Shown here piece after piece: positions 15,678 to 61,557 of a stretch of 64,000 nucleotides of DNA. Both the position numbers and the translations under genes were made by a program. The notes below the pieces were generated by a model. That model was not told the DNA's origin. It saw only the letters and a program-made list of their open reading frames with translations, and searched no databases. Every line of letters starts with the position of its first letter. Position 1 is the first letter of the stretch. Source of the stretch: Chthonomonadales bacterium (GTDB lineage Bacteria > Armatimonadota > Chthonomonadetes > Chthonomonadales > CAJBBX01); assembly GCA_013360745.1 (NCBI GenBank), contig JABWBA010000005.1:1-64000 (forward strand), in the 5' to 3' direction.

Positions 15678-16835
15678 TCAGGCCTCGGGCGGCCCATGAT
15701 AGCGGCCGTGGCGCTGGATCACGCTCATGACCGCCCGAAGGCCGGACAGACGACTGCCCGGGTTGATGCTCCCCGCAGTGGCGATCAGCAACCCTCCATC
15801 TGCGGCGGCGCCGTCAATATCTCGTCGGATCTCTGCGGCGATCTCCGAATCGGCGCCGCGTGCGAACGTCCATGGCGCGAGCTGACCGTGGATGACGCAG
15901 CGCGGCATCTTTTTTCGTATCTCCTGCACCCGTACGGTCGGGCCGAAGTTGCCGTGGTTGATGCCGACCTCGTTTAGGAGAGACAGGAGATGGGCCATGG
16001 CGCTGTCGGAGTGCTGGAACCGCCGGTCTGCGGGGTCCGGGCTGAAGGTCTCAAAGACCCGTCGCAGGATCGGCTGGCCGAACGCGGCGTACATCTCCTC
16101 ATTCAACATGGCGCAGTTATCGTCGTTGCACCCGAAACCGCGTCGATCCGGCGTGCCGCTCGCCTCGTACAGGAGGCGGGTCATCTCGATGATCTTGTCC
16201 GTCAACAGCTCCCGAAATCGGACGGCTAGATCGGGCACATCGGCGATGAGAAAGATGAGGTTCTCGACGCCGTAGATGCTCATCGCTGCGGTCACCGGTC
16301 CCCGTATCCCGCCGCCCATCCGGGGCGTGACGCCGTACTTCTCGTAGATTCGACGAACCTCCGCGTCCCAGTTCGGCGGAAAGAGGCAGTCCCGAAGGTC
16401 TCGTCGCTCGACCCGGTCGAGGAGCGCTTCGAGCTCCTTCGGAGTCTGAGCGGACGGCATGACCCATTCGGTGCCGCCTGTGTGGATCGTTTCCGCTTCG
16501 AAGATCTCGGTGATCGACCGGACCGATGGGAAGTGGGAATCGGCTGGAGGCGGGTCGTCTACCGGCATCATCGGCCTGCCAACCACGGCTATGGCACGTT
16601 CGTTGTACCGTTTCCGGAGCTCCAGCGGGACATCGTACGGATTCTGGACCTCCGTGTCGGTTCCGGCAGGGGTCTCGAGCCCGAGTTCATCCCAGATGCA
16701 CGTCGCGGGCATGCGGATGCCGAGCGGCACCTGGGGCTTGTCGACGCTGAACCATTTACCATGGCTCTCGGCGTCGTCCGCCCAGAACCGTTCCAGATCG
16801 ACCGGGTACAGGTAGGGGCTTCGGGAGTCGCGCAT
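15678..16835 (-). CDS. UroD-like family protein (copy 1)
   Basis: A 385-residue member of the uroporphyrinogen decarboxylase superfamily, the group that also contains the corrinoid-linked methyltransferases MtaA and CmuA. Recognisable segments are CNDDNCAMLNEEMY, FSPDPADRRFQHSDSAM, NHGNFGPTV, RCVIHGQLAPW and GSINPGSRLSGLR. It is too diverged for haem synthesis, and no other haem gene is nearby. A methyl-transfer or lyase role on a small organic substrate is possible but unproven. It lies downstream of a Gfo/Idh/MocA gene (17001-17993) on the same strand, separated by 165 bp that hold an 11-bp inverted repeat. The same pair occurs again at 42233-44385. Confidence 0.75.
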   Translation of the reverse strand: MRDSRSPYLYPVDLERFWADDAESHGKWFSVDKPQVPLGIRMPATCIWDELGLETPAGTDTEVQNPYDVPLELRKRYNERAIAVVGRPMMPVDDPPPADSHFPSVRSITEIFEAETIHTGGTEWVMPSAQTPKELEALLDRVERRDLRDCLFPPNWDAEVRRIYEKYGVTPRMGGGIRGPVTAAMSIYGVENLIFLIADVPDLAVRFRELLTDKIIEMTRLLYEASGTPDRRGFGCNDDNCAMLNEEMYAAFGQPILRRVFETFSPDPADRRFQHSDSAMAHLLSLLNEVGINHGNFGPTVRVQEIRKKMPRCVIHGQLAPWTFARGADSEIAAEIRRDIDGAAADGGLLIATAGSINPGSRLSGLRAVMSVIQRHGRYHGPPEA

Positions 16836-16923
16836 CTCTAAGCCGATCCTGTGCGGCAGCGCTGATCGTCCCGTCGTCGCTGATTCGCCTCGTCCGATTC
16901 ACAGGACACGCTGATGGGCGGAA

Positions 16924-16970
16924 CCTGTCGAGGCGCCCGGTCGGGTTGTCCGGATCCCGGCCTCGACAGG
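16924..16970 (-). terminator. Inverted repeat between the Gfo/Idh/MocA and UroD-like genes
   Basis: CCTGTCGAGGC at 16924-16934 and its exact complement GCCTCGACAGG at 16960-16970 form an 11-bp perfect stem with a 25-nt loop. In minus-strand direction it follows the oxidoreductase and precedes the UroD-like gene. No U-tract follows, so it may be an attenuator, a processing site or an operator rather than a strong terminator. Confidence 0.35.
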
Positions 16971-17000
16971 CTCATATGCATCGGCTCCCGCGTGTCCAAT

Positions 17001-17993
17001 CTAGATGTGAACGACGGTCTTATCCCGGTCCGATTGATAGCCGCCGAGGATAACCTTTAGGACCGTGACCCCTTCGTAGAGGCCCTGTTCCGGCTGTGCG
17101 CCGGTCTCGATGCAGTCGACAAAATGCCGGATCTCGCCGATAAAGCCGTTCTCCGGCGTGAGCTCGTGCTTCTCGATCTCGCCCTCGAGCGGCTGATAGT
17201 AGAGTGTGTTGCCCCGGCCGTAGATCTGCCCGTGCTCTCCGATCGCATGGATCTGCCAGTGGCCATTGGGGACGTGATGGCCCCACGAGGTCTGGAGCGT
17301 TCCGACGGCGCCGCTGGCGAACCGCACCATCGTCTGGGCGCTGTCGTCCCCTTCCAGGTTGGGATGATTGTAGTTGGCCAGCATGCTGACGACTTCGACG
17401 GGTTCGGAGTTCGCCAGGGAGATCAGCATATAGGTCGGGTGGTATCCGGTGTCGATGGCGCAGCCGCCGCCGGAGGTGGCGAGCTTGCCTCGCCAGCCCC
17501 AGTCGACGGGTTTTCCGCCGCCTGCGAGGAAGCAGTCTACGGTTCGGAGACTGAAGAGCCGACCGAGCTTCCCTTCGCGGATCCACTTCCGGGCCAATCT
17601 GGGCGCTGGTTCGAACATCTGATTATGGGCGCAGGCCAGGATGACGCCGTTGGCCTTGACGGCCGCCTCAATCTCCTTCGCCTCCTCGAGCGTGGTGCAG
17701 AGGGGTTTCTCGGTCAGGACGTGCTTGCCGGCGTTGGCGGCATCGACGATCGCGCTGCAATGGAGGTGATGGGGCAGCGCGATGTCCACGGCATCGACGT
17801 TATTCACCGCCAGCATGGTTTTCCAATCGGAGTAAATGGCCGCGTCGGGATTGGTCTCCGATGCCCGCCGTTTCGCGTTTTCTTCGTTCACATCGCACGC
17901 CGCCGTGACGATGGCGCGCCCCTGAACGGCCTTCAGGCCGGGCACATGGGCTCCGACGATGCCCCCGCATCCGACCAATCCAATACGAATCAC
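17001..17993 (-). CDS. Gfo/Idh/MocA family NAD(P)-dependent oxidoreductase (copy 1)
   Basis: A 330-residue cytoplasmic oxidoreductase. The Rossmann loop is GLVGCGGIVGAH (about 5-16), the family catalytic EKP motif is in VLTEKPLCTT, and the D-x-G-x-H substrate motif is in AIDTGYHPTY. These enzymes oxidise or epimerise sugars and inositols through keto intermediates; the exact substrate is unknown. The start is GTG at 17993 with AGGAG 10 nt upstream; the ATG just before it is out of frame. A TATAAT -10 box at 18045-18040 lies upstream. It is the first gene of a Gfo then UroD-like pair mirrored at 42233-44385. Confidence 0.88.
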   Translation of the reverse strand: MIRIGLVGCGGIVGAHVPGLKAVQGRAIVTAACDVNEENAKRRASETNPDAAIYSDWKTMLAVNNVDAVDIALPHHLHCSAIVDAANAGKHVLTEKPLCTTLEEAKEIEAAVKANGVILACAHNQMFEPAPRLARKWIREGKLGRLFSLRTVDCFLAGGGKPVDWGWRGKLATSGGGCAIDTGYHPTYMLISLANSEPVEVVSMLANYNHPNLEGDDSAQTMVRFASGAVGTLQTSWGHHVPNGHWQIHAIGEHGQIYGRGNTLYYQPLEGEIEKHELTPENGFIGEIRHFVDCIETGAQPEQGLYEGVTVLKVILGGYQSDRDKTVVHI

Positions 17994-42232: not shown

Positions 42233-43285
42233 ATGGATCGACCAAGAATCGGATTTGTCGGCGTCGGAGGGATGGGCCAATGCGCGCATCTCCGGAACTA
42301 TGCGGCGCTGCCCTCCTGCGAGGTCGTCGCCCTCGCCGAGCTGAGGCCGGAGCTGGGTCGGAAGGTGGCGGCCCGCTACGGCATCCCGCAGGTGTTTCGC
42401 TCGGCGTCGGAGATGCTCGACGGGGTCGCTCTCGACGCCATCGTGGCGAGTCAGCCGTTCACTCGTCACGGCGTTCTGGTGCCGGAGCTGGCCCGGGCCG
42501 GGGTGCCGATCTTCACCGAGAAGCCTCTTGCCAGCTCGATCGAAGCGGGGCAGAGAATCCTGGAGGCGCTCGACCGTTCGGGCATATGGCACATGGTCGG
42601 CTACCACAAGCGGAGCGACCCGGCTGCCATGTACGCCCGGGCGGAGATCGAGCGTCTCCGATCGACGGGCGAACTCGGCGCCCTCCGTTATGTGCGCATC
42701 GTGATGCCGGCTGGCGACTGGGTCGCCGGGGGCTTTACCGATCTGCTCGGCTCGGATGATCCATGTCCGCCGCTGGAAACGGATCCTCCTGCCGCCGACA
42801 TGGACGAAGAGACCGCTGTCCAGTACAACGCCTTCGTCAACTACTACATCCATCAGGTGAACCTGATGCGGCATCTCCTTGGCGAACCGTATACGGTGGC
42901 CTATGCCGATCCATCCGGGGTGTTGCTGGCCGCGACGAGCGCCTCGGGCGTTTGCGGCACGATCGAAATGTCGCCATATACGACGACGATCGACTGGCAC
43001 GAATCGGCGCTGGTCGCCTTCGAACGGGGCTATGTTCGCCTCGATCTGCCGGCGCCTCTCGCCTCGAATCGACCCGGCAGGGTCGAGGTATTCAAGGATC
43101 CCGGAGGCGGACAGACACCGGTTACGATCGTCCCCACGCTGCCCTGGGTGCATGCCATGCGACAGCAGGCCGAGAACTTCGTCCGGGCGGTCCGGGGGGA
43201 GATCCCGCCCATGTGCGAGGCGCATGAGGCGATGGAGGACCTACAGGCAGCCCGTGCCTACATCAGATTGCTCATGGGCAGATGA
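42233..43285 (+). CDS. Gfo/Idh/MocA family oxidoreductase (copy 2)
   Basis: A 350-residue cytoplasmic oxidoreductase. Rossmann loop GFVGVGGMGQCAH, EKP motif FTEKPLASS, and a YYIHQVNLMRHLLG substrate segment in the C-terminal beta-sheet domain. Substrate unknown, likely a sugar or cyclitol. ATG 42233 follows AGGAAAGG by about 8 nt. The next gene, UroD-like, overlaps it by 4 nt (ATGA), so the two are translationally coupled. The same order (Gfo then UroD-like) is present at 17993-15678 on the other strand, with little residue similarity beyond family motifs. Confidence 0.88.
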   Translation: MDRPRIGFVGVGGMGQCAHLRNYAALPSCEVVALAELRPELGRKVAARYGIPQVFRSASEMLDGVALDAIVASQPFTRHGVLVPELARAGVPIFTEKPLASSIEAGQRILEALDRSGIWHMVGYHKRSDPAAMYARAEIERLRSTGELGALRYVRIVMPAGDWVAGGFTDLLGSDDPCPPLETDPPAADMDEETAVQYNAFVNYYIHQVNLMRHLLGEPYTVAYADPSGVLLAATSASGVCGTIEMSPYTTTIDWHESALVAFERGYVRLDLPAPLASNRPGRVEVFKDPGGGQTPVTIVPTLPWVHAMRQQAENFVRAVRGEIPPMCEAHEAMEDLQAARAYIRLLMGR

Positions 43286-44385
43286 TGAACGCAATGGAAC
43301 CGGGCGAGCGGCTCATTCGATGCCTTCTCGGCCAATCGGTAGATCGCATTCCCTTCGGCATCGGCCTCGGCTGGGGGCCGTGGGGCGAAACGCTGGAGCG
43401 ATGGCGGGCGGAGACGATTCGGCCCGACCTCGATCCCGCCGCCGAGCTCGGCTTCGACCGGAGCTTCGCCGTGCCCGAGGTCCATCCCGGACTGTTCCCT
43501 CCCTTCACGCCGGAGATCCTTGATCAGGATGATCGGTTCGTTGTTCATCGGGATGCGATGGGCATCGTCCGCCGGGATCGGCGCGATGGCCATTCGATGC
43601 CGGAGTTCTTGCGGCATCCGGTTGGGACCGCAGACGATTGGGCGATTCTCAAAGAGGAACGACTGGCGATCGAGACGCCCGGGCGGATCCCGCAGAACTG
43701 GGAGGCGTTTCGCGCGCGGATCCGCAGTACGGGGGAGGCCGTGCAGGTCGGATGGTTTCCGTATGGTGTGTTCGGCACGGTGCGCGATCTCATGGGCGTT
43801 GAGGCGCTGATGGTGGCGCTCTACGACGAGCCCGACCTGATCTCGGAGATCATGGAACATCTGACAACCCTGTGGATCGCCCTGTGGGACCGCGTCGCCG
43901 ACGAAGCGCCCGTCGGACATCTTCATATCTGGGAGGACATGTCCGGTCGGGACGGACCTCTCATCTCCCCGATCATGATCCGGCGGTTCATGGGGCCGTG
44001 CTACGAGCGGCTCGCGGCATGGGCGGCGGCCAGAGGAGTCCGGATCGTCTCCGTCGACACGGACGGCGACTGTGCGCTGCTGGTCCCGATCTTCATGGAC
44101 CTTGGCGTGAACATGATGTTTCCGTTTGAAGTGCAGGCGGGGAACGACATTGAGGGCTATCGCGCACGGTATCCGACGATGGGGATCATTGGCGGATTGG
44201 ATAAGAGGGCGCTGGCCCTGGGCCAGAAGGAGATCGATGTGGAGGTCGCTCGCGCAGAGCGTATGATCCGCCACGGACGCTACATCCCAGCCTTCGACCA
44301 TCTCATCCCGCCCGATGTGCCATGGGCCAACTTCGCCTATGCCGCCGAACGGATGGCTCAGGTCTGCGGAGTCCGGTCCGCCTGA
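43282..44385 (+). CDS. UroD-like family protein (copy 2)
   Basis: A 367-residue member of the UroD superfamily but of a different branch from copy 1. Marks are FGIGLGWGPWGETLERWR, WFPYGVFGTVRDLMG, HIWEDMSGRDGPLISP, SVDTDGDCALLVP and MGIIGGLDKRALA. The MtaA-like zinc ligands (H-x-C...C) are not obvious. Start ATG 43282 overlaps the preceding Gfo stop. Coupling to an oxidoreductase suggests it acts on the same metabolite; cobalamin-dependent methyl transfer, or a lyase step, are possibilities. Confidence 0.78.
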   Translation: MMNAMEPGERLIRCLLGQSVDRIPFGIGLGWGPWGETLERWRAETIRPDLDPAAELGFDRSFAVPEVHPGLFPPFTPEILDQDDRFVVHRDAMGIVRRDRRDGHSMPEFLRHPVGTADDWAILKEERLAIETPGRIPQNWEAFRARIRSTGEAVQVGWFPYGVFGTVRDLMGVEALMVALYDEPDLISEIMEHLTTLWIALWDRVADEAPVGHLHIWEDMSGRDGPLISPIMIRRFMGPCYERLAAWAAARGVRIVSVDTDGDCALLVPIFMDLGVNMMFPFEVQAGNDIEGYRARYPTMGIIGGLDKRALALGQKEIDVEVARAERMIRHGRYIPAFDHLIPPDVPWANFAYAAERMAQVCGVRSA

Positions 44386-44614: not shown

Positions 44615-44706
44615 GGAGAGATGGCTGAGTGGTCGAAAGCGGCCGCCTGCTAAGCGGTTGTAGGGGTGTTAAGCCCTTACCCCGGGTTCGAATCCCGGTC
44701 TCTCCG
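44615..44706 (+). tRNA. tRNA-Ser (anticodon GCU)
   Basis: Acceptor GGAGAGA pairs with TCTCTCC, anticodon GCT at 44649-44651 (codons AGC/AGU), T-arm GGTTCGAATCC, and a long variable arm of the class II type. The discriminator is G at 44706 and CCA is not encoded. It has its own promoter and terminator. Confidence 0.97.
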
Positions 44707-44727
44707 CTGCATTATAAGCCGCTAGCA

Positions 44728-60270: not shown

Positions 60271-61557
60271 ATGAGCGAGGTCACACGGCGGGAACTGGCG
60301 GCCGGAGCGTTCGGATTGGCTCTGCTGACGCCCGTTGCCGGGTGCGCCGCAGGAGTCGATCGGATTCGCCTCGGTTTCATCGGCCTCGGGAACCGGGGCG
60401 CACAGCTCCTGTCCGCGGCCCTCAAACAGACCGACGTCGAGATCGTCGGACTGTGTGATGTGTACGAGCCCTATATCGATCGCGCGCGTACAACCATTGG
60501 CCGGGAGGTCCCCGCCTGGAACGATTACCGGCGCCTTCTCGAGGTCAAAGGCATGGAGGCCGTGGTCGTGGCGAGTCCGGACCACTGGCACGCGCTGCAA
60601 ACGGTCGACGCGTGCGACGCGGGCAAGGATGTCTATGTCGAGAAGCCCCTCTCGCGGACGATCTACGAAGGCCGCCGCATGGTCGAGGCCGCTCGGCGCA
60701 ATAAACGGATCGTGCAGGTCGGTCTCCAGCGTCGATCGTCGCCGATGTATCGGGAACTGGGGCAGCTTGTTCGCGGCGGCGAGATCGGCAAGGTGACCCT
60801 CGCGCAGTGCCATCGTATCAACAACATGTGGCCCGACGGCATCGGCCGAAGCCGCGCCGCCGCCGTGCCGCAGGGGCTGGACTGGGATCTGTGGCTTGGA
60901 CCGAGGGCGTCGAGACCGTTCCAACCGAATATCGCTCCGTATAAGTTCCGATGGTGGCAAGCCTATTCGTCGCAGGTGGCCAACTGGGGCGTCCATTACT
61001 TCGACGCTCTCCGCTGGATCCTCGATGAAACCGCGCCCGTCTCTGTCACGGCCCACGGCGGCCGCTTCGCAGTTGAGGATGACCGGAGCATTCCGGACAC
61101 AATGGAGGTGATCTTCGAGTTCGCGTCCGGCCGACTACTGACGTTCGGCCAGTACGAGGCCTCGGGCCTGCCTGCGCTTCGGGCGGGCGAGGTGGAACTC
61201 CGAGGAACTCTGGGTGTGATCTATGCGGGGTCGGGCGGCTATGACGTAGTGGCCGATCAGGGCGGCCAGTTTCAGACGTGGAAGCCCAGAATACGGTCGA
61301 GGACGGAGCGGCGCACTGACCCCGACCTCGATGCCGCCCATATGCGCAACTTCCTCGACTGCGTCCGGTCCCGGGCGAAGCCCAACTGCGACGTAGAGGA
61401 GGGGCATCACTCCACGGTCTTCGCGCATCTCGCGAACATCTCCCTCGCGACGCGATCTCGCCTCGAGTGGGATTCGGAGCGGGAAACGGTGCGGGGCAAC
61501 AAGGCTGCGAACCGACTGCTCCACTACCGTTATCGCGCGCCGTGGAAGCTCCGATAG
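60271..61557 (+). CDS. Gfo/Idh/MocA family oxidoreductase, exported lipoprotein (copy 3)
   Basis: A 428-residue oxidoreductase. The start TRRELAAGAFGLALL is a twin-arginine signal and VAGC provides a lipobox (C25), so it is Tat-exported and anchored. Rossmann loop GFIGLGNRGAQ, EKP motif in VYVEKPLSRT, and WGVHYFDALRWI match Gfo/Idh/MocA enzymes; related exported ones oxidise sugars with tightly bound NAD(P). ATG 60271 has GGGAGGAG 5 nt upstream. It lies between the unrecognised gene and the second GH42-like gene, 16 nt from the latter, so substrate and product handling may be linked. Confidence 0.88.
   Translation: MSEVTRRELAAGAFGLALLTPVAGCAAGVDRIRLGFIGLGNRGAQLLSAALKQTDVEIVGLCDVYEPYIDRARTTIGREVPAWNDYRRLLEVKGMEAVVVASPDHWHALQTVDACDAGKDVYVEKPLSRTIYEGRRMVEAARRNKRIVQVGLQRRSSPMYRELGQLVRGGEIGKVTLAQCHRINNMWPDGIGRSRAAAVPQGLDWDLWLGPRASRPFQPNIAPYKFRWWQAYSSQVANWGVHYFDALRWILDETAPVSVTAHGGRFAVEDDRSIPDTMEVIFEFASGRLLTFGQYEASGLPALRAGEVELRGTLGVIYAGSGGYDVVADQGGQFQTWKPRIRSRTERRTDPDLDAAHMRNFLDCVRSRAKPNCDVEEGHHSTVFAHLANISLATRSRLEWDSERETVRGNKAANRLLHYRYRAPWKLR

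Follow-up and report, generated by a model that had tools for sequence, protein, structure and literature searches.

The question raised by this locus is whether a Gfo/Idh/MocA oxidoreductase gene that is followed in the same direction by a UroD-superfamily gene marks a pathway in which a methylated sugar is oxidised and demethylated, as had been predicted from the DNA alone, or whether two members of large families simply came to lie side by side. The window, i.e., the whole stretch of 64,000 nucleotides that was analysed, corresponds to contig C39 of a 3.32 Mb genome (G000, assembly 97% complete) that its nearest relatives place in the Chthonomonadales (Armatimonadota), and holds two such pairs with the following features:

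15678..16835, minus strand: UroD1, 385 aa, ATG start; UroD-superfamily protein, proposed corrinoid-dependent O-demethylase (methyltransferase I)
16836..17000, minus strand: gap between Gfo1 and UroD1, 165 bases; strong hairpin at approximately 16922-16973, with no T-run after it
17001..17993, minus strand: Gfo1, 330 aa, GTG start behind AGGAGA; Gfo/Idh/MocA NAD-dependent oxidoreductase
42233..43285, plus strand: Gfo2, 350 aa; Gfo/Idh/MocA oxidoreductase of the second pair
43282..44385, plus strand: UroD2, 367 aa; UroD-superfamily protein, proposed methyltransferase of another subfamily than UroD1 (D259-x-D261, H340)

Both reading frames of the first pair (15678-17993) were present on the minus strand in the transcription order Gfo1 then UroD1, as the original prediction had stated, and Pfam confirmed their families (GFO_IDH_MocA at 1.7e-23 and URO-D at 2.6e-14, respectively). 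The second pair (42233-44385) was also where it had been placed, and it proved as distant from the first as claimed, with BLASTP aligning Gfo1 to Gfo2 at 29% over 165 aa and UroD1 to UroD2 in short pieces only (31% over 67 aa). The 4-base overlap of Gfo2 and UroD2 looks operon-like; a single transcript of Gfo1 and UroD1 is not obvious, because the 165-base gap contains a strong hairpin. A third Gfo/Idh/MocA gene (60271-61557) has no UroD neighbour, and a tRNA-Ser (GCT) lies immediately 3' of UroD2 (44615-44707).

The prediction was said to fail if the pair were not conserved in relatives, and for the first copy this is largely what was found. Orthologues of UroD1 (66-80% identity) occur in nine relatives and those of Gfo1 in all same-family genomes except two, in most of them as a single copy and mostly away from UroD1. 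The two genes are adjacent and codirectional in G000 and G010 (gap of 4-5 bases in the latter), and share a strand at a distance of three kilobases in G007. Gfo1 does not adjoin UroD1 in seven relatives: the genes are at separate places in G006, G009, and G011, Gfo1 is apart from a UroD1 relative that is itself distant (33%) in G005 and G008, and UroD1 is absent from G003 and G004, which do have Gfo1. Among the UroD1 loci with a gene upstream, a codirectional Gfo was directly upstream in 2 of 87, and Gfo genes occupied 10 of 443 neighbour slots, near the genome-wide 1.7% per gene. A conserved Gfo1-UroD1 operon was rejected, as the order is not kept in genomes carrying both genes; because the two lie apart in relatives and so few loci have Gfo upstream, they are best seen as a local arrangement of what appear to be loose neighbours, not fixed partners.

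Apart from the window's own arrangement and that of G010, the Gfo-then-UroD1 order was seen among the UroD1 loci only in an Epulopiscium MAG (L195:3625-5923), where two Gfo/Idh/MocA genes are directly upstream of the UroD1 homologue. The interval in G007 (L086:8615-11388) encodes a CbiM/CbiQ cobalt-transporter protein, directly upstream of UroD1, and an ABC ATPase, both on the same strand as the flanking Gfo1 and UroD1; no cobalamin riboswitch was detected at the window pairs or by the cobalt transporter (window, L086, L087, and L105).

It was the second pair, brought in for comparison, that turned out to be conserved: Gfo2 and UroD2 are adjacent in four other genomes (G002, G004, G007, and G010) as well as in G000, six kilobases apart in G073, and were not found together in G006, G009, and G011. 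On this genomic comparison, the conserved pair is Gfo2-UroD2 and not Gfo1-UroD1. In G002 (L108), Gfo2-UroD2 is surrounded by more Gfo genes together with one for a GH2 glycosidase and one that is TIM-barrel isomerase-like.

How much weight the first adjacency can bear depends on the genomic background, which comprises 54 Gfo/Idh/MocA and 23 URO-D matches in G000. With families of this size, with adjacency limited to G000 and G010 and interrupted in G007, and with Gfo no commoner around UroD1 than about the genome-wide rate, the two genes may be neighbours by accident and act on unrelated compounds in catabolism, an explanation that we hold to be a serious one, at somewhat less than even chances, since a simple and rough model, counting codirectional Gfo genes directly upstream of UroD genes genome-wide, expects 0.26 cases by chance and two or more only ~3% of the time, and since the genes of G010 share a strand with a very short gap. 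A dedicated two-step reaction, in which Gfo1 would make a ketone of the carbon beside the methoxy group and thereby turn the ether oxygen into a better leaving group, and UroD1 would then move the methyl to a corrinoid protein, seems unlikely to us. It could draw on the adjacent, codirectional genes of G000 and G010, their shared strand in G007, where a cobalt transporter intervenes, the good conservation of the second, unrelated pair, and the two Gfo genes preceding the UroD1 homologue in L195; the seven relatives with Gfo1 elsewhere, among them G003 and G004 without any UroD1, the scarcity of codirectional upstream Gfo genes, and a hairpin-bearing gap unlike tight coupling all speak against it. 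Gfo1 itself gave no sharper clue: it has the NAD-binding and both C-terminal domains, as do IolG and related Gfo/Idh/MocA sugar dehydrogenases, but reached the cut-off of none of the named NCBIfam dehydrogenases, and even for the best one, TIGR04380, the identification as IolG was rejected (115.8 bits vs a cut-off of 355).

UroD1 proved more informative than its neighbour. A profile search retrieved 294 stretches encoding relatives, the best 80 of which come from Clostridia, Planctomycetota, Lentisphaerota, Armatimonadota, and others, so that the family is widespread, and it is now annotated only as uroporphyrinogen decarboxylase. It shares the fold and Pfam family of HemE, but was rejected as such on score (53 bits to PF01208 vs 400-455 bits for the true HemE of relatives). 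Because even the top URO-D match in G000 reaches just 187 bits, the assembly (97% complete) is without a true HemE, and its UroD proteins have other roles.

The original prediction had pointed to the corrinoid methyltransferases MtaA and CmuA, which holds for structure and not for family membership. The AlphaFold2 model of UroD1 (pLDDT 84) found its best solved match in Methanosarcina mazei MtaA (4ay8/4ay7, E 1.5e-12), with HemE structures close behind, and M. mazei MtaA was likewise the best solved structural match of the UroD2 model. At the sequence level, neither UroD1 and UroD2 nor profiles built from them gave a useful match in the PDB. The known MtaA, MtbA, and CmuA enzymes have the UroD fold and work with corrinoid proteins; however, against their model (TIGR01463, cut-off 235.4 bits), UroD1 scored 40.3 and UroD2 21.4 bits, and the required His-x-Cys with a later Cys is replaced in UroD1 by His-x-Asp with Gly/Ser. 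A true MtaA-like protein of G000, distinct from UroD1, is encoded elsewhere (C120).

An alignment of 14 homologues, collected without motif selection and thus an unbiased basis for the motif, showed Q274-H275-S276-D277-S278 and T353-A354-G355-S356-I357-N358 to be invariant in 14/14; the occurrence of HxD in 90 of 91 loci was set aside as evidence, as most loci had been found by that motif. Alignment within the genome, which is approximate at such divergence, gave H275-x-D277 with Gly/Ser at the last metal position for UroD1, and Asp-x-Asp (D259-x-D261) with His (H340) last for UroD2. Computationally, then, UroD1 is without the thiol-type His-Cys-Cys site and misses the third metal ligand. S-methyltransferases of the superfamily have His-Cys-Cys, while in O-methyltransferases the Cys residues are replaced by carboxylates or non-ligands (PMC10418091), and H275-x-D277 would fit the hard-ligand site described there for the latter; one member, CdmB, functions without zinc (PMC13222342).

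The link to corrinoids comes from homologues and from the rest of the genome. In two clostridial loci (L194 and L198), a UroD1 homologue (44-47% identity) is followed by genes for a corrinoid protein, DUF2284, RACE, formiminotransferase (FTCD), and cyclodeaminase, and upstream of it lies a divergent GH3 glycosidase gene. A sugar isomerase, an 867-residue protein, and UroD1 are encoded in a row in two loci of the Planctomycetota (L174 and L193), with RACE divergent. The protein of ~867 residues between the sugar isomerase and UroD1 (L174:3119-5722 and L193:3126-5726) has no Pfam match. Across 121 genomes, UroD2-type matches were present in 84 and RACE in 82, all within those 84 (0 of the 37 others; Fisher 4e-29, a value that ignores phylogeny); the patchiness of this pattern within a single order speaks against simple descent as its cause. 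Where the UroD1 relative was required to match at E<1e-60, RACE accompanied it in 20 of 20 genomes.

By computation, the core corrinoid system of G000 is complete. Apart from MetH, the genome encodes one stand-alone corrinoid protein (C86:34674), in a cluster of the order corrinoid protein-MtaB-UroD-homocysteine methyltransferase-UroD, and one RACE (C120:20583), in a cluster with an MtaA-like UroD and a D-lyxose-isomerase-like protein, to which an FGGY sugar kinase can be added at a greater distance. The core genes of both form one cluster in G002, and similar clusters exist in G012 and G018. The MtaA-like UroD of the C120 region (L209; G000:C120:16500-27500) keeps an intact His-x-Cys...Cys, and the gene order is kept in G010 (L220). 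Near UroD1, neither a corrinoid protein nor a RACE gene was found in the window or in close relatives.

Taking these lines together with the cobalt transporter directly upstream of UroD1 in G007, we give about even chances to UroD1 being a corrinoid methyltransferase of the UroD superfamily that serves an O-methylated sugar, most likely a uronate or aldose. UroD1 would bind the sugar and pass its methyl to the Co(I) of the C86 corrinoid protein, giving a demethylated sugar, destined for catabolism, and a methyl-Co(III) protein, from which the methyl would go on to homocysteine, folate, or another acceptor. The single RACE of C120 would keep the corrinoid protein reduced and repair oxidised cobalt, and the one corrinoid protein could thereby act as a hub for some twenty UroDs. 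Gfo1 would be an ordinary dehydrogenase of sugars or cyclitols, whose part in this pathway, confined to two genera, would at most be to supply or drain it; Gfo enzymes might in principle oxidise the neighbouring carbon and ease ether cleavage, a role that suits Gfo2-UroD2 better than Gfo1-UroD1. Against the methyltransferase reading stand the chemical difficulty of cleaving an unactivated alkyl methyl ether with a corrinoid, the low TIGR01463 score, the missing third ligand, and the lack of corrinoid and RACE genes nearby.

A UroD fold with corrinoid-free chemistry, e.g., decarboxylation or a C-C/C-O lyase reaction on a sugar acid, could draw on the lack of a corrinoid gene next to UroD1 in Armatimonadota, the absent thiol-type zinc site, and the nearly equal structural scores of HemE-like proteins and MtaA. 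We nevertheless regard such chemistry as improbable in view of the corrinoid operons of the homologues and the all but perfect match between the presence of UroD-like proteins and that of RACE, which applies to the UroD-like set as a whole and allows for exceptions within it. That UroD1 is a corrinoid methyltransferase acting on something other than a sugar (e.g., a haloalkane, a methoxylated aromatic, or a methylated amine or thiol) is similarly doubtful, as its homologues are found mainly among genes of glycan, uronate, or general metabolism. In favour of such a substrate, every O-demethylase or dehalogenase of the UroD superfamily that PMC13222342 names as characterised acts on methoxylated aromatics or haloalkanes.

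For a sugar methyltransferase, the neighbourhoods of the homologues offer some hints as to the substrate. A GH67 alpha-glucuronidase is encoded beside the UroD1 homologue in L132, L134, L136, and L147; the first three are closely related and amount to roughly a single case. In L156, that position is taken by UxaC (glucuronate isomerase) together with a TIM-barrel isomerase-like protein and a short-chain dehydrogenase. Elsewhere the neighbours include GH2, GH4, GH20, GH43, GH130, and further glycan genes along with many ordinary housekeeping genes, and the enrichment in glycan and uronate functions, noticed post hoc, is suggestive. GH67 acts on the 4-O-methylglucuronate side chains of xylan, and since it adjoins UroD1 homologues, 4-O-methylglucuronate suggests itself as a possible substrate in Clostridia. 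A GH67, GH115, or glucuronate isomerase partner was also sought inside the Armatimonadota and discarded, all three being missing from the window's genome and its family; among the 121 genomes, GH67 occurred in 6 (none with UroD1), GH115 in 2 (1 with UroD1), and UxaC in 15 (3 with UroD1, one of these weak). Because GH67, GH115, and UxaC are absent from G000, the clostridial uronate idea cannot be transferred to it directly, and the substrate of its UroD1 is therefore stated, with modest confidence, just as some O-methylated sugar.

Several known systems can be compared with the proposal. MtvB, OdmB, VdmB, MtoB, and CdmB, the last a chloromethane dehalogenase, are UroD-superfamily methyltransferases I that use a separate corrinoid protein and an activating enzyme and do not always need zinc (PMC13222342); their substrates are methoxylated aromatics or haloalkanes, whereas members of the UroD1 family lie near glycan and uronate genes, and UroD1 in the window has no corrinoid partner gene nearby. 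Type 1 mlp clusters, composed of a UroD-superfamily Mlp, a corrinoid protein, and RACE, resemble the C120 and C86 clusters and the L194 and L198 operons in content, but the Mlps, unlike UroD1, stand near the coenzyme M methyltransferases, which have a His-Cys-Cys site (PMC10418091). The characterised sugar demethylation that we found in the literature is that of 6-O-methyl-D-galactose by a P450 in porphyran use, which has the same outcome as proposed here, i.e., removal of the methyl from a methoxy sugar, but needs oxygen and releases formaldehyde, while the corrinoid route would keep the methyl (PMC10033563).

What was claimed for the locus thus survives in part. Demethylation is a reasonable guess, and gains independent support from UroD1, which is not HemE and has MtaA as its closest solved structure, and from its homologues, which occur in corrinoid-methyltransferase operons and by glycan and uronate genes; the pairing, offered as evidence for joint oxidation and demethylation, is a weak argument for the first copy. 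What is new here is the UroD1 family with its context rather than the pairing of the genes. A search of open-licence papers, which is weak evidence of novelty, returned nothing on corrinoid demethylation of methylated sugars, corrinoid methyltransferases of Armatimonadota, or pinitol.

Should the corrinoid route hold, it would explain how anaerobes could use methylated sugars with the methyl group kept, would assign a role to proteins that at present carry just the uroporphyrinogen decarboxylase annotation, and would present an unusual hub design, with one corrinoid protein for some twenty methyltransferases. Methylated sugars occur widely in the polysaccharides of plants and microbes, e.g., 4-O-methylglucuronate in xylan or methylated rhamnose and fucose. 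More tentatively, and at well under even chances, Armatimonadota, Clostridia, and Planctomycetota may share an undescribed, oxygen-independent route for methylated sugars. It would be built on a large radiation of UroD-fold methyltransferases, each devoted to a single methylated sugar or uronate, which in Clostridia might be 4-O-methylglucuronate from xylan; many of these enzymes would charge one and the same corrinoid protein, itself dependent on a single RACE, and in some cases, Gfo2-UroD2 among them, a Gfo enzyme would activate the ether. The clostridial operons L194 and L198 make the idea of corrinoid demethylation directly testable. A different arrangement was observed in another genome of the Armatimonadota (G055), where a PhyH-type dioxygenase gene is directly upstream of a UroD1 homologue (L101:8351-9157); a relative of PhyH, PHYHD1, has been reported to demethylate 2'-O-methylated nucleosides (PMC12709175).
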